From Thermodesulfobacterium sp. TA1 (GTDB taxonomy: Bacteria > Desulfobacterota > Thermodesulfobacteria > Thermodesulfobacteriales > Thermodesulfobacteriaceae), in the NCBI RefSeq assembly GCF_008630935.1, contig NZ_CP043908.1, forward strand, positions 620,001-684,000: a stretch of 64,000 bases of DNA, given 5' to 3'. Of this stretch, positions 51,676 to 63,651 are shown piece after piece. The position numbers were made by a program, and so were the translations under genes. Each line of letters starts with the position of its first letter. Position 1 is the first letter of the stretch. The notes under the pieces are model-generated. The model was not told the DNA's origin, did not search any database, and saw nothing but the letters and a program-made list of their open reading frames with translations.

Positions 51676-52833
51676 TTAGACATCAAATATTCTATCTGAA
51701 TATATAACCCTTCCCTCTCTCATTGTCATAACCACCCTCGCAAAGCTTTCTTCCATTTTCACTAGAATCAAGTCCGCATCCTTTCCTTCCTCAATACTTC
51801 CCTTTTTATCCAAATTCACCGCCTTTGCTGGATTGAGCGTGGCTAATTTTATCGCCTCATGAAGAGGAAGTATATCCTCTGTACTAAGCTTAAATATTGC
51901 TTGAATTAATGTTGATGGTGTATAATCTGAACATAGAATATTTGCATAGCCGAGTTTTATAAGCTCCCTTGCACTTAGGTTTCCATGATGAGATAAGCCT
52001 CTTAACGCGTTAGGTGATCCTACGCATACAGTCATCCCAAGCTCTTTGGCAGTTTTCGCTGCTTCTATGCTTGTGGGAAACTCTGAAACCGTTATCCCCC
52101 TTTCATAAACCCACCTAACTTTTTCTGCGCTGTCATCATCGTGGGAGATTAATGTCAATCCCTTTTCTCTGCATCTGATGAGAAACCGTTCAACTTTTTC
52201 TATGACACTGTCCCTCAAAGAAAGCTTCTCCTTTATTAGAAGGCTTACATCTTCTGATTTTATCTTGTAAGTCTTTTCTAAGTACTCTTTGTAATCCTTT
52301 TCTTTTTTGAACTGCCCTTGTCCTGGCGTGTGATCCATTATGGACAGGGCATCTATAGCGCGCTTTTCTATAAGTTCGCCAAGATAGTCTATACCCTTGA
52401 CATTGGTTAGTTCAAGCCTGGCGTGAATTTTGTGATTGGTCAAAAGCCTTGGTTTTAGCTTTAGGATGGTTTCTGCTAGCTTACTTGCCAGCTGATTGCT
52501 CCTTAGGCCTAACTCTTTGTCCGCAAAGGAAATAGCATGGAAGAAGGTAGTTATACCCCAAAGAGCTAATTTCCTGTCTAACTCCAAAATGGCCAACTCA
52601 AAGGGGAAAAAGGTATTTGGCCTTGGCTCCACTTCTTTTTCTATAGCATCGCTGTGAAGGTCTATCAGTCCAGGCAAAAGAAACATTCCCTTTGCCTTTA
52701 TTCTTTTTACGCTGTATTTTGGCTCCCCTTCTCCTACCTCTAAAATCTTTCCCTCACTTACAAGCACGTATCCTTGGTCTAAAACACCAAAGGGAGTAAT
52801 AACCTTTGACCCTTCAATCAAAAACTCACTCAT
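51676..52833 (-). CDS. phnM: alpha-D-ribose 1-methylphosphonate 5-triphosphate diphosphatase
   Basis: 385 residues, amidohydrolase family. FLLPGLIDLHSDAIEKEVEPRP gives the HxD-type metal site, and the later HKIHARLEL, LISHDDDSAEKVRW and CSDYTPSTLIQAI blocks fit PhnM. It removes pyrophosphate from the ribose triphosphate phosphonate to make the substrate of PhnJ. It overlaps phnL by 8 bases and is the last gene of the operon; no phnN or phnP follows. Confidence 0.94.
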   Translation of the reverse strand: MSEFLIEGSKVITPFGVLDQGYVLVSEGKILEVGEGEPKYSVKRIKAKGMFLLPGLIDLHSDAIEKEVEPRPNTFFPFELAILELDRKLALWGITTFFHAISFADKELGLRSNQLASKLAETILKLKPRLLTNHKIHARLELTNVKGIDYLGELIEKRAIDALSIMDHTPGQGQFKKEKDYKEYLEKTYKIKSEDVSLLIKEKLSLRDSVIEKVERFLIRCREKGLTLISHDDDSAEKVRWVYERGITVSEFPTSIEAAKTAKELGMTVCVGSPNALRGLSHHGNLSARELIKLGYANILCSDYTPSTLIQAIFKLSTEDILPLHEAIKLATLNPAKAVNLDKKGSIEEGKDADLILVKMEESFARVVMTMREGRVIYSDRIFDV

Positions 52834-53515
52834 ACTTTTTCACCTCCAAGACTTTATCAGCAATAGCTTTTAGATGAGCTTCGTTGTGGAATATACCTAT
52901 CATACCCACTTCTTCCTCTTTTAACTCCTTTAGAAGCTCAAGAACTATCCTTGCCGATTTTTCGTCCAAAGAGGCAGTAGGCTCGTCAAGAAGGAGAAGC
53001 CTTGGCTTCCATATTATGGCTCTAGCAATATTTACCCTTTGCTGTTCGCCTCCGCTAAAGGTAGAAGGATAAGCATCAAGGAGATTGGATGGTATACCAA
53101 GCCTCCTTAGGAGCCATCTAGCCCTTTCTCTCGCTTCTTTTTCATCCACACCAAAGTATCTCACAAGAGGCTCTGCCACTATATCCATTGCAGACACCCT
53201 GGGAATAACGCTGAAGAACTGGGATACGTATCCTATCTCTTTCCTTCTTAGCCTTATCATTTGCCAGTCGGGAGCTTTTTGTATAGGGACCAATCCGTAT
53301 TCATAAGAGTTGTAGAGAATATGGCCTTTTGTTGGTATGTATGTGCGGTATATGCACTTTAGGATACTGCTCTTGCCAGCCCCACTTGGCCCACAGAGAG
53401 CCAAAAACTCTCCTTTTTCCAACTCAAAGCTTATTCCGTTGATGCTCTCTATTAGTTTTTTTTGTCCTACCTTTATCTCAAACTTTTTGGATAAGTTTTC
53501 TACTCTCAAAAGCAT
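52826..53515 (-). CDS. phnL: C-P lyase complex ATPase subunit PhnL
   Basis: 229 residues, ABC ATPase. Walker A GPSGAGKSSILKCIY, signature FSGGEQQRVNIARAI and Walker B LLLLDEPTASLDEKSA are intact. PhnL joins PhnK as a dual-ATPase module on the C-P lyase core. It lies 10 bases after phnK and overlaps phnM by 8. Confidence 0.93.
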   Translation of the reverse strand: MLLRVENLSKKFEIKVGQKKLIESINGISFELEKGEFLALCGPSGAGKSSILKCIYRTYIPTKGHILYNSYEYGLVPIQKAPDWQMIRLRRKEIGYVSQFFSVIPRVSAMDIVAEPLVRYFGVDEKEARERARWLLRRLGIPSNLLDAYPSTFSGGEQQRVNIARAIIWKPRLLLLDEPTASLDEKSARIVLELLKELKEEEVGMIGIFHNEAHLKAIADKVLEVKKYE

Positions 53516-53525
53516 TTTTTCCCCT

Positions 53526-54371
53526 CTAAAGTTGAGATGATACTAAGAGTTGTGTGTATTCGTGCTGAGGATCGTTGAGTATCTGGTCAGTAAGCCCCAT
53601 CTCCACAATCCTCCCTAACTTCATCACAATAACCCTATCCGCTAAAAGGTTTATCACTCTCAAGTCGTGGGAAACAAAGATTATTGAAAGGTTTAGCTCT
53701 TGGTGAATTTTTCTTATCAGGTCAAGGACCCTTGCTTGCACGGAAAGGTCCAAACCTGTGGTTGGCTCGTCCAAGAGAAGGATGGATGGCTCGTTGGCTA
53801 GGGCTTTTGCTATCTGCACCCTCTGCTGCATTCCCCCGCTTAGGTTCCTAGGAAGGTCCTTCATCCTATGATTTGGAAACTCCATCTTTTCCAAAAGATA
53901 TTCAACTCTGTTTTTTATGGAGCTGTAGTTTCTCCAACCTGAGACAAGCAGGCTATCTGCCACATTGCCTGCGGCGCTTACGTTTGGATTTAGACCAAGC
54001 AGTGGATTTTGATAGACCACGCCTATGACTGTGTTTTTTAACATCCTTTTCTGATAGGAGTTCAGAGAGAAGAGATTTTTACCATTTACCCATTCCGCCC
54101 CTCTAACATCATAAAGATGAGCCTCTCCAAAGGTCGGTTCTATTTCAAAGTTTAGGAGTTTTATCACTGTGCTTTTTCCAGAACCGCTCTCTCCCAAGAT
54201 GCCTAAAATTTCCCCTTCGTAGAGTTCAAAGGACACATCAGCGCAGGCAACTACAGAGCTACATCTTCTGCAGATGTTTGTTTCTTGCTTTGGCCCTGTG
54301 ATAGAAAGACACTCTGGACAGCCTTTGCCGTGAATTTTAGTCAGATTAGAAACTCTTAGAACTACCCGCAT
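53526..54371 (-). CDS. phnK: C-P lyase complex ATPase subunit PhnK
   Basis: About 281 residues from ATG 54371, preceded by GGAGG nine bases before; the frame is open further, to an ATG at 54422, but that has no such site. Walker A GESGSGKSTVIKLL, signature LSGGMQQRVQIAKALA and Walker B ILLLDEPTTGLD are intact. Two cysteine pairs (GCPECLS and NICRRCS) lie in the inserted region before the Walker A, as in many PhnK proteins. It docks on the PhnGHIJ core. It overlaps phnJ by 26 bases. Confidence 0.92.
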   Translation of the reverse strand: MRVVLRVSNLTKIHGKGCPECLSITGPKQETNICRRCSSVVACADVSFELYEGEILGILGESGSGKSTVIKLLNFEIEPTFGEAHLYDVRGAEWVNGKNLFSLNSYQKRMLKNTVIGVVYQNPLLGLNPNVSAAGNVADSLLVSGWRNYSSIKNRVEYLLEKMEFPNHRMKDLPRNLSGGMQQRVQIAKALANEPSILLLDEPTTGLDLSVQARVLDLIRKIHQELNLSIIFVSHDLRVINLLADRVIVMKLGRIVEMGLTDQILNDPQHEYTQLLVSSQL

Positions 54372-55209
54372 GTTTGTTAGCCTCCATTCTTTTTTCACAG
54401 TAGCTTGTATCGGAGCAAGCATACAGTCTTCTTACAGTGCCGTCTTCCACTATCTCGTCTAAGAAGGTATCCGTAGCACCGCACTTGTAGCAAGCTTTGC
54501 CACTGAAGTCTTCCACTCTGAATTTGAAGTCTTCAAACTCCAGAGGTTCAACTGTTGTGTATGGGGGTACCGCGTATATTTTCTTCTCTCTTCCTGCTCC
54601 AAAGAGGAAGAGGTTGTCTGCCATATTGAGCCTTGGCACGTCCCACCTGGGTATAGGAGTTGGGTCCATGATGTAGCGTTTGTTTACCATGACCGGATAC
54701 CTAGCACCTATGGTTATCTCTCCGTATCTTAGAATATCCTCATAAAGGTAGAGATACATTTTGCCATAGTCCTTTTCCTCATGCATTCTTCTGGTTTCCT
54801 CTTCGCTTGGCTCAACAAGCCTTAGGGGCTCTGGATAGGGCACCTGAAGAACGAGGATTTGGTCTTGTCGTAAAGGTTCCTCCGGGATTCTGTGTCTGGT
54901 CTGGATGACGGTGGCTTTTGTGGTGTCCGTGGTTGTTTCTACTCCGGTCATGGCCTTGATGAACTTTTTTATGTTTACAGCGTTTACGCTGTAATCACAT
55001 CCTTGGTCTATGACCTTCAGCATGTCGTCAGGACCGATGATGGACAGAGTTATCTGAAGGCCTCCTGTACCCCAACCTTTGGCTATGGGAAGCTCTCTTG
55101 AGGCAAAGGGAACCTGATAGCCCGGTATGGATATGGCTTTTAAAATGGAGCGCCTTATCTCCCTTTTGGTGTTTTCATCTAAAAAGGCAAAATTGTAGCT
55201 AAGCCTCAT
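54346..55209 (-). CDS. phnJ: alpha-D-ribose 1-methylphosphonate 5-phosphate C-P lyase (radical SAM)
   Basis: 287 residues. The catalytic cysteine set has exactly the spacing known from E. coli PhnJ: CYKC, 21 residues, C, 5 residues (SDTSY), C, that is CX2CX21CX5C near residues 236-267. The glycine-bearing segment GYQVPFASRELPIAKGWGTGG is near the N-terminus. It cuts the C-P bond of the ribose methylphosphonate, giving methane and the cyclic phosphate when the substrate is methylphosphonate. It overlaps phnI by 4 bases (ATGA). Confidence 0.96.
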   Translation of the reverse strand: MRLSYNFAFLDENTKREIRRSILKAISIPGYQVPFASRELPIAKGWGTGGLQITLSIIGPDDMLKVIDQGCDYSVNAVNIKKFIKAMTGVETTTDTTKATVIQTRHRIPEEPLRQDQILVLQVPYPEPLRLVEPSEEETRRMHEEKDYGKMYLYLYEDILRYGEITIGARYPVMVNKRYIMDPTPIPRWDVPRLNMADNLFLFGAGREKKIYAVPPYTTVEPLEFEDFKFRVEDFSGKACYKCGATDTFLDEIVEDGTVRRLYACSDTSYCEKRMEANKHAGSSKSF

Positions 55210-56294
55210 CTTTTCACCTCTGCAAACTGGCTTTGTATCTTTCTTAGCCTGTCCAAATCGGATTGGAAGGTAACATAGTGAGGAAGCTTGTAGTGATTGG
55301 CAAAGCCCATAGAATCAACGCTATCTACGTGATAGAATACAAACTCGCTGTCTTGGGAGGGATGCTGTGGTTCTTGTGTTTGCATAGCCTTGTCTAAAAC
55401 AGCCATGCATATAGCCTTTGTTTCGTTATGTCCAAAACATGCACCGTATCCCAAGGAGAACTTAGGCATACCGTCCTGGCTTTCTATCTTTGCTACCAGT
55501 TCTACCTCTGTCACCTTCACCTCTCCAACATAAATCTCTTCTCCTGTGTAAGGATGAAGCACGCTCACTGGTGCATAACCTACTCTCAGCTCTGCCACGG
55601 TAGGATGTATGTCTCCGTAACCTCTCATGTTGGAGTAGCCTAAAAGCAAAAGTCCTCCTGTTTCTCCTCTGGCCATGTTCTGTAGAATGGCGCTTCTTGG
55701 GGGAGGAAATTTGCTGACCGCCTCCTTTGTAATATCCACAAACTCCGTAGATTGATAGGAGGGTGCATCTACAACAAGCCCCTCTTTCCTAAGAATCTCA
55801 ACAAGCTTGGGAAACTCAGTAGGAAGGTCTTCATCTCCTATCTCACCTAAGAGCTCCTCTATAAATTTCTTTCTTCTTTCCTCATCTTCTTCTAGAAGCT
55901 CAAACTTAAAGAGCCTAAGACAGTAGTCTGAGGTAGGTCCTAAGATCTGTCCTCCTGGGATGTCTTTGAAGGCGGCAGAGATCCTTCTTATTATCTTAAT
56001 CTTCTCCGTTTTGATAGGTAGGGAGTATCCCAAGCTGGGAAGGGTGTTCCTGATGGCTCTGAGAATAAAGGAAGCCTCAAGTATGTCTCCCGCCGCCTGC
56101 TTGATGGCTAGAGCAGCTATCTTTGGAGCGTAAAGGGAACCCTCAGACATAATTCTATCAACCAGGAAGTAAAGCTGTTCAGCTATCTGATCAACGGACA
56201 GTAGCTTTGACTTTCCCTTCAACCTCTGATACTCCAAAAGCTTACAAGCGTATTCTATAGCTTTTTCACCACCTCTAACCGCTACATAACCCAT
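55206..56294 (-). CDS. phnI: C-P lyase core subunit PhnI
   Basis: 362 residues. MGYVAVRGGEKAIEYACKLLEYQRL is the normal PhnI opening, and LGYSNMRGYGDIHPTVAELRVGYAPV is conserved. With PhnG, PhnH and PhnL it replaces the adenine of ATP by phosphonate. The start is 1 base after the phnH stop; the end overlaps phnJ. Confidence 0.95.
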   Translation of the reverse strand: MGYVAVRGGEKAIEYACKLLEYQRLKGKSKLLSVDQIAEQLYFLVDRIMSEGSLYAPKIAALAIKQAAGDILEASFILRAIRNTLPSLGYSLPIKTEKIKIIRRISAAFKDIPGGQILGPTSDYCLRLFKFELLEEDEERRKKFIEELLGEIGDEDLPTEFPKLVEILRKEGLVVDAPSYQSTEFVDITKEAVSKFPPPRSAILQNMARGETGGLLLLGYSNMRGYGDIHPTVAELRVGYAPVSVLHPYTGEEIYVGEVKVTEVELVAKIESQDGMPKFSLGYGACFGHNETKAICMAVLDKAMQTQEPQHPSQDSEFVFYHVDSVDSMGFANHYKLPHYVTFQSDLDRLRKIQSQFAEVKR

Positions 56295-56295
56295 T

Positions 56296-56880
56296 TCATA
56301 ACACCTCCTCTTTCACAGACCTGGGAATGCTTACTAACATTCCCTTTTTATCGACAAAAAAACAGTCTACTCCCAGAGGAAAGAGTTGATTCACTTGGGC
56401 AAGAGTTATGAACTCCTGCCGTGGCAGGCCCAAAAGGCTAACAAGTTTTTCCCCCTTAACTCCCGGCCCGGATAGTCTAAGAACAACCCCACTGTGTATT
56501 CCCTCTTGCACCTCTTCAACCAGGTAGATGACAGTAGCAGCCTTTTCTGGATTGCGAAGGTCCCCTACTTTGACATCCCAAAGTCTTTCATGCAAAGCCT
56601 CCGTTGCTATTACAAAATCGGCCTCTTTCATAGATAAAACTTTACTTTTAGTTAGCCAGACTATCTTTTCCTCTAAAACTTTGCTGTCTGGACCTACAAC
56701 ACAGAAGCTCGTCTGCCCGTCTATGAGCGTAAGAGCTATGGCCCCTAAGGGCCAAAACTTAGGACCTAAAAATTCGTAAAGGTCCTCTGACAACTCAAGA
56801 CTCTGAACTGTTCCCGGAAAGCTAATCGCCTTTAGCAAACCTCTAAAAACTCTTTGAGTGTAAAATACCTCTCCTTTCAT
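56296..56880 (-). CDS. phnH: C-P lyase core subunit PhnH
   Basis: 194 residues. TQRVFRGLLKAISFPGTVQSLEL, then ALTLIDGQTSFCVVG and VLRLSGPGVKGEKLVSLLGL, are PhnH blocks. It forms a dimer in the PhnGHIJ core and has no catalytic motif of its own. It is 6 bases after phnG. Confidence 0.93.
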   Translation of the reverse strand: MKGEVFYTQRVFRGLLKAISFPGTVQSLELSEDLYEFLGPKFWPLGAIALTLIDGQTSFCVVGPDSKVLEEKIVWLTKSKVLSMKEADFVIATEALHERLWDVKVGDLRNPEKAATVIYLVEEVQEGIHSGVVLRLSGPGVKGEKLVSLLGLPRQEFITLAQVNQLFPLGVDCFFVDKKGMLVSIPRSVKEEVL

Positions 56881-56886
56881 GTTTTT

Positions 56887-57309
56887 TCACCTTTTTACCA
56901 TAGTTTCAAACTGAACCTTAGTCTTTGCTATAAGCTTTCTTTCCTTTTCCCAAGCTTCTTCAATCTTCTTTTTCTCCTTGCTTAAAAATCGGTGGAGTTT
57001 TTTCTTTAGATTTTCCTCATCCGATTTAAAAACAGCTTCTAAGACAGCTATCGCAACAGCTTTCTCTTCCTCCTCTGCCAAAACCAAACCGTAGCCCTTA
57101 ATGCCCTTATACTCTACCTCTGCTTCAAAGACCAAGGCTTCTCCCAAACAGAACTCTACACCAAAGCAATCCTTAGCCTTTATCATCAAACATCCAGCCT
57201 GCGGTCCTTTCTTTACTTTGACCTCTTCCATTGAAAGCATCTTAAAGAAAATATTCAAAGATTTCTGATCCATCTTAACCACCACCTCTCTAAAGTCCAA
57301 ATCCATCAC
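56887..57309 (-). CDS. phnG: C-P lyase core subunit PhnG
   Basis: 140 residues. KGPQAGCLMIKAKDCFGVEFCLGEALVFEAEVEY carries the family core, represented by FCLGEALVFEAEV. The last 40 residues are a charged helix. PhnG belongs to the four-subunit core that starts the pathway. It overlaps phnE by 4 bases. Confidence 0.9.
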   Translation of the reverse strand: MMDLDFREVVVKMDQKSLNIFFKMLSMEEVKVKKGPQAGCLMIKAKDCFGVEFCLGEALVFEAEVEYKGIKGYGLVLAEEEEKAVAIAVLEAVFKSDEENLKKKLHRFLSKEKKKIEEAWEKERKLIAKTKVQFETMVKR

Positions 57310-58850
57310 ATAAACCTCCTTCTTAGATAGGCGGAAAAGTAGTCTATAATCAACAAGGTGAAGACTATCACTAGTATCATCGCAGACACCTTGTCGAACT
57401 CAAAAAGCTTTATCCTCATCACAAGCTCAAAACCTATTCCCCCTGCTCCTACCACCCCCATTACAGTGGCAGCCCTTACGTTTCTATCCAGTATGTAAAG
57501 ATTGTAGCTATTGAATAAAGGAAGTATCATAGGTATTATCGCGTGTCTTATGGTTTGAATTAGTCTGGCTCCCACAGCCTCCAAAGCCTCTATAGGCCTG
57601 TAGTCTAAGTCTTCTACTATTTCAGAATAAAATTTGGCTAAAAAACCCGTCGTATGTAAAGCTATTGCCAAAACACCTGCAAAGGGACCAAGTCCTACTG
57701 CGCTGACAAAAATCAAAGCAAGCACAAGCTCAGGAATAGCCCTCAAAAAGTTTACCATCTCTCGTAAAAGATTGGTTATGAAAGCATTATTTACCAAGTT
57801 TCTGGCCATTAGCATCCCCAATTGAACAGACAACAAAACCGCTATCGTTGTCCCAGTCAAAGCTATGGCTATAGTTTCAAGCATGAGCATAAGGTAAGTT
57901 TTCAGCTCACTAAAGTCGAGCTTGAGAAAGTCCCCAAGCAAGGGCAGTAGGTTTTTAAAGCCATTGATTAACTCTGAAGTGTCGATGGGTAAAAACTTCA
58001 AAGATAAAAGAGAAAGTATGAATATGGTCACAAGGACCATAACGTCCTTGGTCTTTGTGTGGTATGCCAAGAGCTTATACTGATATATATCGTTTCTGAG
58101 CTTGGCAGAAAGCCTGTCTATTATAGATACTACTATCAATATTACTACGAGTATACCGCCGACCTGAGGGTAGTTAAAGGACCTTATCTGACTAAAAAGC
58201 TCAATTCCAAGACCACCTGCTCCTACCACTCCTAAAACTATAGCCACTCTGATGTTATGATCTAGAAGATATAGGTTATATCCAACAAAAGAGGGAAGTA
58301 TCTGTGGTATTATGGCATATCTGAAGACCTGGATGCTATGACTACCTGTGGCCCGCAGAGCTTCCAAAGGTCTTGTATCTACACTCTCTATTGCTTCTGA
58401 ATAGAACTTGCCCAGAAGACCAACTGTGGAGATAGCAAGAGCTATAATTCCAGGCAAAGGTCCAATACCAAAGGACACCACCAAAACAAGCGCATAAAGA
58501 AGTTCCGGTATGGACCTTAAAAAAGTCACCAATCCACGAAAGATGTAGTAAATCAAAAGGTTTGGTGAAGTATTTCTGGCGGACAAAAAGCCTACCGGAA
58601 GGGAAATGAAACTTCCTATTATGGTTCCCCATAGGCCTATGACTATAGTCTGGACGGTAAGATTGATTATGTTTTCCACCCCACTAATCTTTGGGGGAAT
58701 CATTTCCCCAATTAGGGCTATAGAATTGGAAAAACCCTCCACCAGAGCGAATAGATCGAATTTAGAAAAACTAAAGGATAGATAAAGGGTTGCCAGAAAA
58801 AGGAACCACCACAGATGTTTCAAAGATAGGCTTGGGAGACTGTACTTCAA
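57306..58850 (-). CDS. phnE: phosphonate ABC transporter permease, fused double PhnE
   Basis: 514 residues, about twice the usual PhnE (about 260). Two full permease domains follow one another. Each has the EAA-type loop: ESVDTRPLEALRATGSHSIQVFRY near 165 and EDLDYRPIEALEAVGARLIQTIRH near 425, and each has a glycine-rich end (VLGVVGAGGLGIELFS and VMGVVGAGGIGFELVM). A fused dimer is expected to form the whole transmembrane pore. The start is TTG at 58850 with GAGGAGG six bases before it; this overlaps phnC by 80 bases. Confidence 0.93.
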   Translation of the reverse strand: MKYSLPSLSLKHLWWFLFLATLYLSFSFSKFDLFALVEGFSNSIALIGEMIPPKISGVENIINLTVQTIVIGLWGTIIGSFISLPVGFLSARNTSPNLLIYYIFRGLVTFLRSIPELLYALVLVVSFGIGPLPGIIALAISTVGLLGKFYSEAIESVDTRPLEALRATGSHSIQVFRYAIIPQILPSFVGYNLYLLDHNIRVAIVLGVVGAGGLGIELFSQIRSFNYPQVGGILVVILIVVSIIDRLSAKLRNDIYQYKLLAYHTKTKDVMVLVTIFILSLLSLKFLPIDTSELINGFKNLLPLLGDFLKLDFSELKTYLMLMLETIAIALTGTTIAVLLSVQLGMLMARNLVNNAFITNLLREMVNFLRAIPELVLALIFVSAVGLGPFAGVLAIALHTTGFLAKFYSEIVEDLDYRPIEALEAVGARLIQTIRHAIIPMILPLFNSYNLYILDRNVRAATVMGVVGAGGIGFELVMRIKLFEFDKVSAMILVIVFTLLIIDYFSAYLRRRFM

Positions 58851-59607
58851 AGTATACCTCCTCTAATTCTGTTTTGTAAAGATCTCTTGCCATGTCTAAG
58901 CTAAAGTCCGACTGAGGTCCGTCAAAGTATATTTTTCCATCCTTTAGGGCAACCACTCTATCAAACTCTTGAACGTAGTAGATCTGGTGAAGCACACAGA
59001 TCAGGGTTATACCTCTTTCTTTACTTATTTTTAGAAGCTGGTTTATTATCTTTCTGCTTGTACCTGGGTCTAAGTTGGAGATGGGCTCGTCTGCAAGTAA
59101 AACTTCCGGATCTTGCATAAGCGCTCGGGCTATGGCCACTCTTTGCTTTTGACCTCCGCTTAGTCTATCTGTCCTGACGTATGCTTGATCTGCAAGACCT
59201 ACATATTCCAGAAGATAGAGTGCCTTTTCTTTTACTTCTTTTGGAAAGAAACCTAAACTGGTCATGAGATAATCTATTCCTCTGTCGTATTTACCCAAAG
59301 CCCCCATCATCACATTTTCTAAGGCAGTCGCTCTTTCTACGAGGTTAAACTGCTGATAGATTTTTCCAATTTTTTTACGGATGTTTCGTAACATTTCTTT
59401 TTTACGAAAATCCACCTTTAAACCATCAAAATAGACTTCTCCCCCATCTGGGAGGACGAACCCGTTGATTATCCTCAAAAGGGTAGTCTTCCCAGAACCG
59501 CTGGGACCAATGAGAGTAACTACTTCCCCCTTCCTTACCTTTAAAGATACATCATTTAAAACCTTTTTCCCATTAAAGCTTTTGTTGATATAGCTAAGAG
59601 AAAGCAT
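58771..59607 (-). CDS. phnC: phosphonate ABC transporter ATPase
   Basis: 278 residues. Walker A GPSGSGKTTLLRIINGF, signature LSGGQKQRVAIARALMQDP and Walker B VLLADEPISNLDP are complete. It energises uptake of phosphonates together with PhnD and PhnE. The last 27 residues lie in the overlap with phnE. It is 13 bases after phnD. Confidence 0.93.
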   Translation of the reverse strand: MLSLSYINKSFNGKKVLNDVSLKVRKGEVVTLIGPSGSGKTTLLRIINGFVLPDGGEVYFDGLKVDFRKKEMLRNIRKKIGKIYQQFNLVERATALENVMMGALGKYDRGIDYLMTSLGFFPKEVKEKALYLLEYVGLADQAYVRTDRLSGGQKQRVAIARALMQDPEVLLADEPISNLDPGTSRKIINQLLKISKERGITLICVLHQIYYVQEFDRVVALKDGKIYFDGPQSDFSLDMARDLYKTELEEVYFEVQSPKPIFETSVVVPFSGNPLSIL

Positions 59608-59620
59608 CTTTACCCTCCGT

Positions 59621-60541
59621 TTATTTACTCTTTTGGGTATCTATAAATTTTTTTATTTTTTTTATAGTTTCATAGTCCGCATCTGACACAAGCTTATATC
59701 CTACTATCTTCCCATATCCTACCACTACATCCCTAGGCACTCTGGTAATAGACTTTCTTAGAGCTTCTTTTATTTTTTCTGGCAAGTCCTTCCTATAAGC
59801 CATAGGAGGACCTGGTATTTCTGGAGACATCCAGATAACTATGTTTTTTTCCTTTGTGATTTTGCCTTCTCTTAAGAGCTTGTCATAGGTGATGTCGTTG
59901 TCAGCTACTATATTCAACGTCTTTTTGAAGACCGCCAACTCTGCCGCATCGTGCGTTCCAACAAAACCTACATTTCTAAAGTAGGCTTTGGGATCCATAC
60001 CTGCTTTGGCCATATAGTAGAAAGGAACTGCGTATCCAGAAGTAGAGGCTGGGTCTGTGAAAGCAAAGCTGAATTTTCCTTTGTGTTTTTCAAGCTTTTC
60101 CCTTAAAATTTTCATACCGTTCTCACCCTCAAGTGGCCTATTAATTCCAAGTAACTGTGCCACTTCCTGAGTTGCCACAAGATAGGACCTGTAGGTTGTT
60201 CTTCCTTTCTCATCAATTCCCACAGCAAAAGCTTCCGCACCTGCTCTTTCGTTTGCCAATACGTAAGAAAAGGCTCCAAACCATGCAAAGTCTACCTTCT
60301 TTGCCCTCATAGCCTCAATAACTCCCGTGTAGTCAACCGCTGTAAACATCTCAATACACATTCCCATATCTTTTTCCATCCACTCCTTCATGGGCCTGTA
60401 GCGCTCAATCATGGATTTAGGTTCCTCTGCAGGTATGAGGCCCATCACTAAGCACTTCTTCTCTGCGGCATAGGATAGAGAAAGGCTCCAAAGCAGGCCT
60501 ACAAAAAGAACTAACAGCAAAGCTCTGAGCAGTCCTTTCAT
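59621..60541 (-). CDS. phnD: phosphonate ABC transporter, periplasmic binding protein
   Basis: 306 residues. A signal peptide (about residues 1-26, ending SLSYAAEKK) leads to the phosphonate-binding domain: GLIPAEEPKSMIERYRPM, DFAWFGAFSYVLANERA and FSFAFTDPASTSGYAVPFYYM. It is the first gene of the operon, with a strong ribosome site (AGGAGG) and the PHO-like box upstream. Confidence 0.94.
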   Translation of the reverse strand: MKGLLRALLLVLFVGLLWSLSLSYAAEKKCLVMGLIPAEEPKSMIERYRPMKEWMEKDMGMCIEMFTAVDYTGVIEAMRAKKVDFAWFGAFSYVLANERAGAEAFAVGIDEKGRTTYRSYLVATQEVAQLLGINRPLEGENGMKILREKLEKHKGKFSFAFTDPASTSGYAVPFYYMAKAGMDPKAYFRNVGFVGTHDAAELAVFKKTLNIVADNDITYDKLLREGKITKEKNIVIWMSPEIPGPPMAYRKDLPEKIKEALRKSITRVPRDVVVGYGKIVGYKLVSDADYETIKKIKKFIDTQKSK

Positions 60542-60681
60542 TGTTAAACCTCCTAAAGTTTTTTTGTATGTATCATAGAAGCCTATCGTTAAGGAATTAT
60601 TAAATAATTATTAAAAATTTGTTAAAATTATCTTTGATCTTTCACTTAAAAAAAATTAAGTATGCTGAAGATGAAAGGGGT
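60542..60681. other. phnD upstream region
   Basis: It holds the operator and promoter listed separately; the rest (60626-60681) is AT-rich with no recognised element. It abuts an IS left end at 60682. Confidence 0.5.
60572..60625 (-). promoter_or_regulatory. PHO-box-like four-repeat operator plus -10 of the phn operon
   Basis: On the minus strand TTAACA (60625-60620), TTAATA (60614-60609), TTAATA (60603-60598) and TTAACG (60592-60587) stand exactly 11 bases apart, with five-base spacers. This is the direct-repeat layout that PhoB/PhoP-type regulators bind, with the six-base unit close to the Bacillus TT(A/T/C)ACA type. Nine bases further downstream is TATGAT (60577-60572), a good -10, so the array takes the place of a -35. 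The phnD start codon is 30 bases after the -10. Confidence 0.78.
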
Positions 60682-60836
60682 AGTGTCTCATTAATTTTGT
60701 AAAGACTTGAGGTGAAGGGTATGGTAGCTTCCCCAATTCTTAATAACCAAAACTACCAGAAAGGAGGGGAAGCTACCATTAAGCAACTAAACAACTTAAA
60801 CCCTCAACTCCAACAAGAAATTTTAGACTCCTATAC
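60682..60836 (+). mobile_element. IS left end, copy A, with a 14-base inverted repeat over the ribosome site
   Basis: AGTGTCTCATTAATTTTGTAAAG begins the copy; about 100 bases (60682-60779) are nearly identical to 62961-63061. ATGGTAGCTTCCCC (60721-60734) pairs perfectly with GGGGAAGCTACCAT (60766-60779), covering the GGAGGGG ribosome site. After 60779 it differs from copy B (AAGCAACTAAACAACTTAAA) and stops at the IS3 remnant. Confidence 0.75.
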
Positions 60837-62618: not shown

Positions 62619-62960
62619 AACCTCTTTTGAGGTAATAGGTCTGTAAATTTGATCTACAAAGTGGAAAGTAATTTTCACGGTTGTGGGTAAGTTCATAGGG
62701 TATGTATATTTTTAAAAATCTCCTCTTTGATGCTTGCATTTTAATTACCTTTCTTAGGGCACTCCTGCATTTTTTCAGACAAAGAAATATTACAGGGCTA
62801 AGTTTTCTTAGGTCATCAAATATTTAGTATTTTTGAATTTTTCATCCCTTAGCCCCTTTTAGTCTTCAATGTTTATTTTGTAATTTTACAGGTGAAAGTT
62901 CAATTGGTCTACCCCTCGGTTTAGCTTAAAAAGCTCTCGCGAAAAATTATAATCTACAAT
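62619..62960. other. gene-free stretch upstream of the repeat protein
   Basis: About 340 bases, no supported reading frame. It has GGGCTAAG (62795-62802) and CTTAGCCC (62848-62855), an 8-base inverted repeat 45 bases apart. The sequence ends at the IS256-like element. No promoter for the repeat protein is clear. Confidence 0.45.
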
Positions 62961-63358
62961 AGTGTCTCTTTAATTGTGTAAAGACTTGAGGAAAAGGGAA
63001 GGGTATGGTAGCTTCCCCAATCCTTAATAACCAAAACTACCAGAAAGGAGGGGAAGCTACCGTGAAAGAAAAAACTAAAACTTTAACAAAACAACCTATA
63101 GAAGAAATTCTAGACTTTTTTCAGCAAGAAGTCAACAATCTTATTAAAAACCTTTTAGAAAACCTTATGCTTAAAGAAAGAAGGATTTATTTAGAAGAGC
63201 AAGAAGACTATGAATCAAGTTGAGAGAGTCGTTATATTTAATCTTGAAAGAAATAGATGAGAGATTAAACTCAAGGAGGTTAAGAGGATTTAATGGAGGT
63301 TAAAGTGAGGACTACCATGCTCTCCTCAAAAGATTCTTTACACAATAAAAGAGACACT
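62961..63358 (+). mobile_element. internally deleted IS256-like element (copy B), 398 bases
   Basis: The ends are inverted: AGTGTCTCTTTAATTGTGTAAAG at 62961 and, on the other strand from 63358, AGTGTCTCTTTTATTGTGTAAAG, one mismatch in 24. Inside, GGTAGCTTCCCC (63007-63018) pairs with GGGGAAGCTACC (63050-63061), which masks the ribosome site. Only the transposase N-terminus remains. I could not see a convincing target duplication at the flanks. Confidence 0.8.
63062..63223 (+). pseudogene. IS256/mutator transposase N-terminal fragment
   Basis: GTG at 63062 follows the hairpin ribosome site AGGAGGGG. The 53-residue product reads KEKTKTLTKQPIEEILDFF, then IKNLLENLMLKERRIYLEEQ, like the start of mutator-type transposases, and ends before the DDE domain. 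The rest of the gene has been deleted. An in-frame ATG at 63005 is inside the hairpin and not needed. Confidence 0.7.
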
Positions 63359-63651
63359 ATGATCTTTTACTCTCTAACGGCAAGCATCAGTCGTCAGAAA
63401 GCGTGAGAAAAAAATGATTTAAGAAAGAAATGGCAACATGAACAATCACAATAATTATAATGCAACATTAAAATTTGTTAAATCAACAATAGCCCTACTT
63501 ATGAGATACTTTGAGCCATCATCTCGTCTCTGAAGAATATTCTACCAATCTGACCTCTCATATTAGGAATTAAGGGTGAACTTTATAATAGTAACCACAA
63601 TTATTTTTCTTGATCTTGAAAAAGAAGGTTAATGGTATATCTTTTTAAACT
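63359..63651. other. gap between the IS256-like element and the small gene
   Basis: AT-rich, no frame worth calling, no further transposase remains seen. The promoter of the following pair must lie in its last part; TATAATAGT at about 63585 is a candidate -10. Confidence 0.4.

Follow-up and report, generated by a model that had tools for sequence, protein, structure and literature searches.

A predicted four-unit PhoB operator upstream of the C-P lyase operon in Thermodesulfobacterium sp. TA1

Background

The window analysed here (the whole stretch of 64,000 nucleotides, in whose numbering positions are given unless another locus is named) contains a C-P lyase operon preceded by a run of similar hexamers, and the question raised by this locus is whether these hexamers form the operator of a phosphate-responsive regulator and, if so, how an operator of this kind came to stand before this operon. 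PhoB-type proteins bind head-to-tail on 11-nt direct repeats (PMC4415409) and touch sigma-70 via their transactivation loop (PMC3973317), and the phn C-P lyase operon of E. coli is controlled by PhoB (PMC1906773). No paper on phosphonate use or on a Pho regulon in Thermodesulfobacterium was found in the literature searched.

Results

The operon comprises the phnGHIJKLM core of C-P lyase together with the phnDCE transporter, in the compact order phnD-C-E-G-H-I-J-K-L-M (Table 1), in which neighbouring genes overlap or have at most 13 bases between them. Because the genes overlap or nearly abut, a single promoter upstream of phnD could serve all ten of them. The TTG start listed for phnE falls within phnC.

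On the minus strand, the hexamers TTAACA (60625-60620), TTAATA (60614-60609), TTAATA (60603-60598) and TTAACG (60592-60587) follow one another at an exact 11-base period, and the region upstream of phnD reads TT-TTAACA-AATTT-TTAATA-ATTAT-TTAATA-ATTCC-TTAACG-ATAGGCTTC-TATGAT-ACATACAAAAAAACTTTAGGAGGTTTAACA-ATG. The TATGAT -10 element lies nine bases past the last hexamer, and the phnD ATG begins 46 bases from that hexamer. In 11-mers, the array reads TTTTAACAAAT TTTTAATAATT ATTTAATAATT CCTTAACGATA, followed by GGCTTC and then TATGAT, and inspection of the sequence revealed no TTGACA-like -35 at 17 nt from TATGAT. An earlier note on this DNA had described these repeats, their period, the position of the -10 and the distance to the phnD start, all of which are correct to the base. 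While two direct repeats at an 11-bp period are enough for a Pho box, the phn array has four.

Table 1. Features of the phn operon and of the region upstream of phnD (window positions)
Feature	Position	Strand	Basis or remark
phnM	51676..52833	-	profile match
phnL	52826..53515	-	profile match
phnK	53526..54422	-	profile match
phnJ, C-P lyase catalytic subunit	54346..55209	-	PF06007 1.5e-144
phnI	55206..56294	-	PF05861 3e-138
phnH	56296..56880	-	profile match
phnG	56887..57309	-	profile match
phnE, double-length permease, two PhnE domains in one ORF	57306..58850	-	TIGR01097, two stretches
phnC, ABC ATPase	58771..59607	-	TIGR02315 above cut-off
phnD, phosphonate-binding protein, first gene of the operon	59621..60541	-	TIGR03431 1.3e-75; ATG begins at 60541
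phnD ribosome-binding site AGGAGG	60549..60554	-	sequence
-10 element TATGAT	60572..60577	-	sequence and spacing comparison
6-nt spacer GGCTTC, last 11-mer to -10	60578..60583	-	same length in 12/12 family arrays
Predicted Pho unit 4, CCTTAACGATA	60584..60594	-	3.3 bits, pstS-trained matrix
Predicted Pho unit 3, ATTTAATAATT	60595..60605	-	5.3 bits, pstS-trained matrix
Predicted Pho unit 2, TTTTAATAATT	60606..60616	-	7.8 bits, pstS-trained matrix
Predicted Pho unit 1, TTTTAACAAAT	60617..60627	-	13.3 bits, pstS-trained matrix; top-scoring phn unit

The genome (1,829,881 bases in one contig) encodes exactly one regulator of the OmpR/PhoB family (Trans_reg_C), whose gene is divergent from pstS-pstC-pstA-pstB and has a gene for a PhoR-like histidine kinase next to it. 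The best NCBIfam model for the regulator is PhoB (9e-58), though the match is below the equivalog cut-off, and that for the kinase is PhoR, likewise below its cut-off; a cognate PhoB/PhoR pair is therefore at hand. The phoB-pstS intergenic region, read towards pstS, contains TTTTAAACAAA CTTTCATAAAG TTTTAACCAAA TTTTAACAAAA, followed by CATGTT and TATCGT. The same motif in a four-unit 11-base array is thus found before pstS of the same genome, where its absence had been named beforehand as a refutation of the operator. In the PhoB protein (224 aa, L014:5419-6093, minus strand), the two arginines with which E. coli PhoB contacts bases, Arg201 and Arg219, are retained as R198 and R214, and E. coli Thr194, Val197 and Arg200 are replaced by V, A and C, replacements that would be in keeping with an altered unit sequence. 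Elsewhere in the genome, a second PstS-like gene (L015 4402-5499; G000:C1 about 98.4-99.5 kb) belongs to another gene cluster, where it lies behind a phosphoribosyltransferase-like gene with no pstCAB adjacent, and the DNA upstream of it looks alike in several related genomes. PhoU and a second PhoU-like domain (TIGR00153) are fused in a protein of 452 aa that is encoded far from pst (L016 7153-8511).

Arrays of this kind are also present in relatives. The PstS protein is 87% identical to that of Thermodesulfobacterium thermophilum and 86% identical to that of T. hveragerdense, the closest named organisms, and the phoB-type pstS genes of G009, G010, G012, G013, G015, G020 and G021 have three or four such 11-mers each; six or more other genomes of the genus have phoB-type pstS promoters with the layout described above. 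The consensus unit of the pstS arrays is TTTTAACAAAA; about 80% of these units retain the C at position 7 despite their AT-rich setting. TTAAC arrays are found in the pstS promoters of Desulfobacca and Syntrophorhabdaceae, and TTCACA pairs in GC-richer genera of the same family, from which it follows that the TTAAC-type unit is ordinary for this lineage. Two further arrays precede other genes. A near-perfect four-unit array with 6 nt and TATAAT (L214, G016:C46, oriented 1501-1575) directly precedes an unknown ORF of 125 aa (MLEYLSWQDGG...); in this Thermodesulfobacterium relative, the ORF is a candidate member of the Pho regulon. Another (L218, G018:C55, 1501-1650) stands before a gene for a secreted-looking protein without a Pfam match, and G011 has a gene for a similar protein next to phoB and a fragment of pstS; the guess that the G018 gene encodes a phosphate porin had no support from Pfam and was rejected.

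The distance to the -10 element was the same throughout. All 12 arrays from outside E. coli, phn included, have exactly 6 nt between the last 11-mer and a TANNNT motif, whereas at any other offset from 0 to 23 the motif is present in 0-2 of the 12; these arrays are not fully independent, because their pstS orthologues are related to each other. Four of them, located before a second-type PstS gene and the unknown gene (both G016), before the gene for the secreted-looking protein (G018) and next to phoB and the pstS fragment (G011), were found by a model that held no -10 information. The E. coli phoA and pstS promoters (NC_000913) have a 6-nt gap to the -10 as well, in line with a published account that puts the Pho boxes of E. 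coli 10 bp upstream of the -10 (PMC1906773). The phn array therefore takes the place of a -35 at the fixed distance from the -10.

The phn array was scored with an 11-mer weight matrix trained solely on pstS arrays of other species, with the genome itself and phn left out. With this matrix, the phn array ranked first in the 64-kb window on both strands (27.5 bits, compared with 20.6 for the next unrelated site), and when the upstream region was dinucleotide-shuffled 4000 times, no shuffle reached its four-unit score. With the background set at 18% GC, the array still ranked first, and its score was reached in 0 of 4000 shuffles for four units and in 3 of 4000 for three. Three copies of TTAAYR at an 11-base period with zero mismatch occur at the phn array and nowhere else in the 1.83-Mb genome (two overlapping matches), a pattern that was picked after the array had been seen, which does not apply to the matrix test. 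When a pooled, position-averaged model of 44 bases (4x11; R2), trained without the phn site but including the pstS units of this genome, was run genome-wide, the top match was pstS (E 2.4e-6) and the next one the phn array (E 0.0059), with 150 of 5290 first-look candidates fully scored and the E-values rough in so AT-rich a genome. The third-ranked match (window 43190) lies inside a reading frame resembling NAD synthetase and was taken as chance. A fully position-specific model of the pstS promoter (R1) scored the phn site at 9.2 bits, with an E of 3 and a genome-wide rank of about 25, probably because R1 had learned the pstS spacers too. Units 2 to 4 at phn score lower than the pstS units (Table 1), and the upstream region has a G+C content of only 24%, so that weak matches come easily.

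The phn operon itself is sporadic. Of the 14 genomes of the genus, 1 has a close PhnD, as do 2 of 30 in the family and, at E below 1e-50, 5 of a phylum-wide sample of 395; none was found in the other 13 genomes of the genus, which accordingly offer no orthologous phn promoter for footprinting. The operon (51676-60541) has 42.6% GC versus 35.6% for the part of the window to its left, a difference which suggests that it may have been acquired from elsewhere, and insertion-sequence remnants begin 54 bp upstream of the array. An insertion-sequence-like end is present in two copies (60681-60782 and 62959-63360), which are 96% identical over 69 bases. The copy at 62959-63360 opens an element with 26-base inverted-repeat ends and 350 nt between the arms, within which a short ORF resembles, by eye, the start of an IS256-type transposase; the copy at 60681-60782 is followed at about 60927 by a broken reading frame that looks IS3-orfA-like by eye. 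Among genomes of other families, the four phn-bearing ones that were inspected have no array of the phn type before phnD. In G002, the sole relative in the family with phn, there is one good unit and one weak unit, then 6 nt and TATTTT, about 200 bp upstream of phnD.

Discussion

The phn repeats agree with those at pstS in this genome both in sequence and in their precise spacing. It is therefore very likely that a PhoB-type regulator binds them, and we hold with high confidence that the array is a four-unit PhoB operator which replaces the -35 and would activate phnDCEGHIJKLM under phosphate limitation. The PHO-type operator in place of a -35 that the earlier note had placed before phnD is thereby supported, since pstS of this genome and of its relatives is preceded by comparable arrays with the same distance to the -10. 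Under phosphate limitation, a trigger suggested by the presence of the PhoR/PhoB/Pst set, the PhoR-type kinase would phosphorylate the single PhoB-like regulator, which would then bind TTTTAACAAAT-TTTTAATAATT-ATTTAATAATT-CCTTAACGATA head-to-tail. With the last unit at the -35 position and TATGAT exactly 6 nt further on, bound PhoB would recruit sigma-70 RNA polymerase to a promoter that lacks a -35, and the resulting expression of the ten phn genes would lead to phosphonate uptake and C-P bond cleavage.

Alternatively, the repeats could be a chance TTAA-like run in AT-rich promoter DNA, with phn transcribed from an ordinary sigma-70 promoter such as TTAACA-18-AATAAT (60625-60596). The low G+C content of the region is in favour of this, as are the score of the TTAACA/AATAAT pair (10 of 12, a match of which about one is expected by chance) and the inability of the fully position-specific pstS model to tell the phn site from noise. 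However, chance would have to account for the first rank in the window with a matrix from other species, for a four-unit score that no shuffle reached even at 18% GC, for a rank in the genome behind pstS only and for the exact 6-nt geometry, and we regard it as unlikely.

It is also conceivable that another regulator acts at the array, for instance a PhnF/GntR-type repressor responding to phosphonate rather than phosphate; apparent GntR/UTRA C-termini are encoded, by inspection, before phnD in two genomes of other families (G301 and G270), and one UTRA regulator is present in the genome studied here. GntR regulators usually bind inverted repeats, however, whereas the phn array consists of head-to-tail 11-bp repeats; moreover, the gene for the UTRA protein is at a linear distance of about 839 kb, and its product gives weak matches to HutC/PhnR models, and the phn operon contains no regulator gene, which together make such a repressor very improbable. 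Even less probable is that phased AT-rich DNA raises promoter strength without a specific activator, by bending or as an UP element: the T-rich blocks do have an 11-base phasing, but the TTAA at the centre of each phn unit contains a TpA step, and such steps do not favour A-tract bending, while most pstS units retain the C at position 7 despite the AT-rich setting.

The PhoB operator that we favour can be compared with known Pho systems. The E. coli pstS operator (NC_000913) likewise has four 11-mers (CTGTCATAAAA CTGTCATATTC CTTACATATAA CTGTCACCTGT), 6 nt and a -10 (TATTTT), with PhoB bound in place of a -35, as is predicted for phn, but its core is TGTCAT rather than TTAACA and it drives pst, not phn. 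In the E. coli phnC operator, one stretch reads TTAATTAACCAA, similar to the phn array, whereas its units are mostly GTCAC, and the E. coli operon has the order phnCDE... with phnF and phnNOP in addition. The TGTCA core that each unit of a CTGTCAT-type box would have is absent from the arrays of Thermodesulfobacterium sp. TA1, where unit 2 of the pstS array (CTTTCATAAAG, near E. coli CTGTCATAAAG) alone approaches it. The PhoP boxes of Bacillus subtilis have a TT-x-ACA-like unit and an 11-bp period, and are thus like the phn array by description rather than by comparison of sequences, in a Gram-positive organism. Also comparable are the cyanobacterial SphR boxes, CTTAACCT, which are predicted before phnD-C-E-E2-G-H-I-J-K-L-M in Trichodesmium IMS101 (PMC1906773): the unit is of the TTAAC type, it makes 11 bp with its 3-bp linker, at least three copies stand in tandem, and the operon is nearly identical in make-up to that of Thermodesulfobacterium, although the phylum is another one, the regulator is SphR and the unit ends in CCT. 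PhoP of the Gram-negative Riemerella binds a TTTAACA core (PMC9603813). The box of Desulfovibrio vulgaris PhoB (DVU1083) is also a PhoB-bound direct repeat in a sulfate reducer, but has the consensus (c/t)GT(n)AC with a 4-bp spacer (PMC3333781).

It had been proposed that the unit is nearer to the Bacillus TT-x-ACA type than to that of E. coli and that this is notable for a Gram-negative. The resemblance holds, while the view of the TTAAC unit as unusual was dropped, since it occurs across the genus, in some deltaproteobacterial pstS promoters (Desulfobacca, Syntrophorhabdaceae), in cyanobacteria and in Riemerella. Both a Pho-controlled C-P lyase operon and TTAAC-type boxes before phnDCE...M are of kinds already known. 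What is more interesting than the type of the unit is a sporadic, G+C-richer, IS-flanked operon with a Pho operator of the host type. Because of the sporadic PhnD, the GC contrast, the insertion-sequence remnants and the lack of an array in the four phn operons of other families, we tentatively suggest, at somewhat below an even chance, that the C-P lyase operon came in by horizontal transfer and was then brought under the host Pho regulon, in which case the host-type operator would have arisen or been captured in situ after arrival.

Conclusions

This analysis yields a Pho box consensus for Thermodesulfobacterium that can be tested, namely TTTTAACAAAA at an 11-bp period with 6 nt to the -10. 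E. coli and this thermophile appear to have one promoter geometry, in which the distance from PhoB to the -10 is kept and the base sequence of the site drifts. The proposed operator predicts that a thermophilic sulfate reducer would scavenge phosphonates when phosphate is short.
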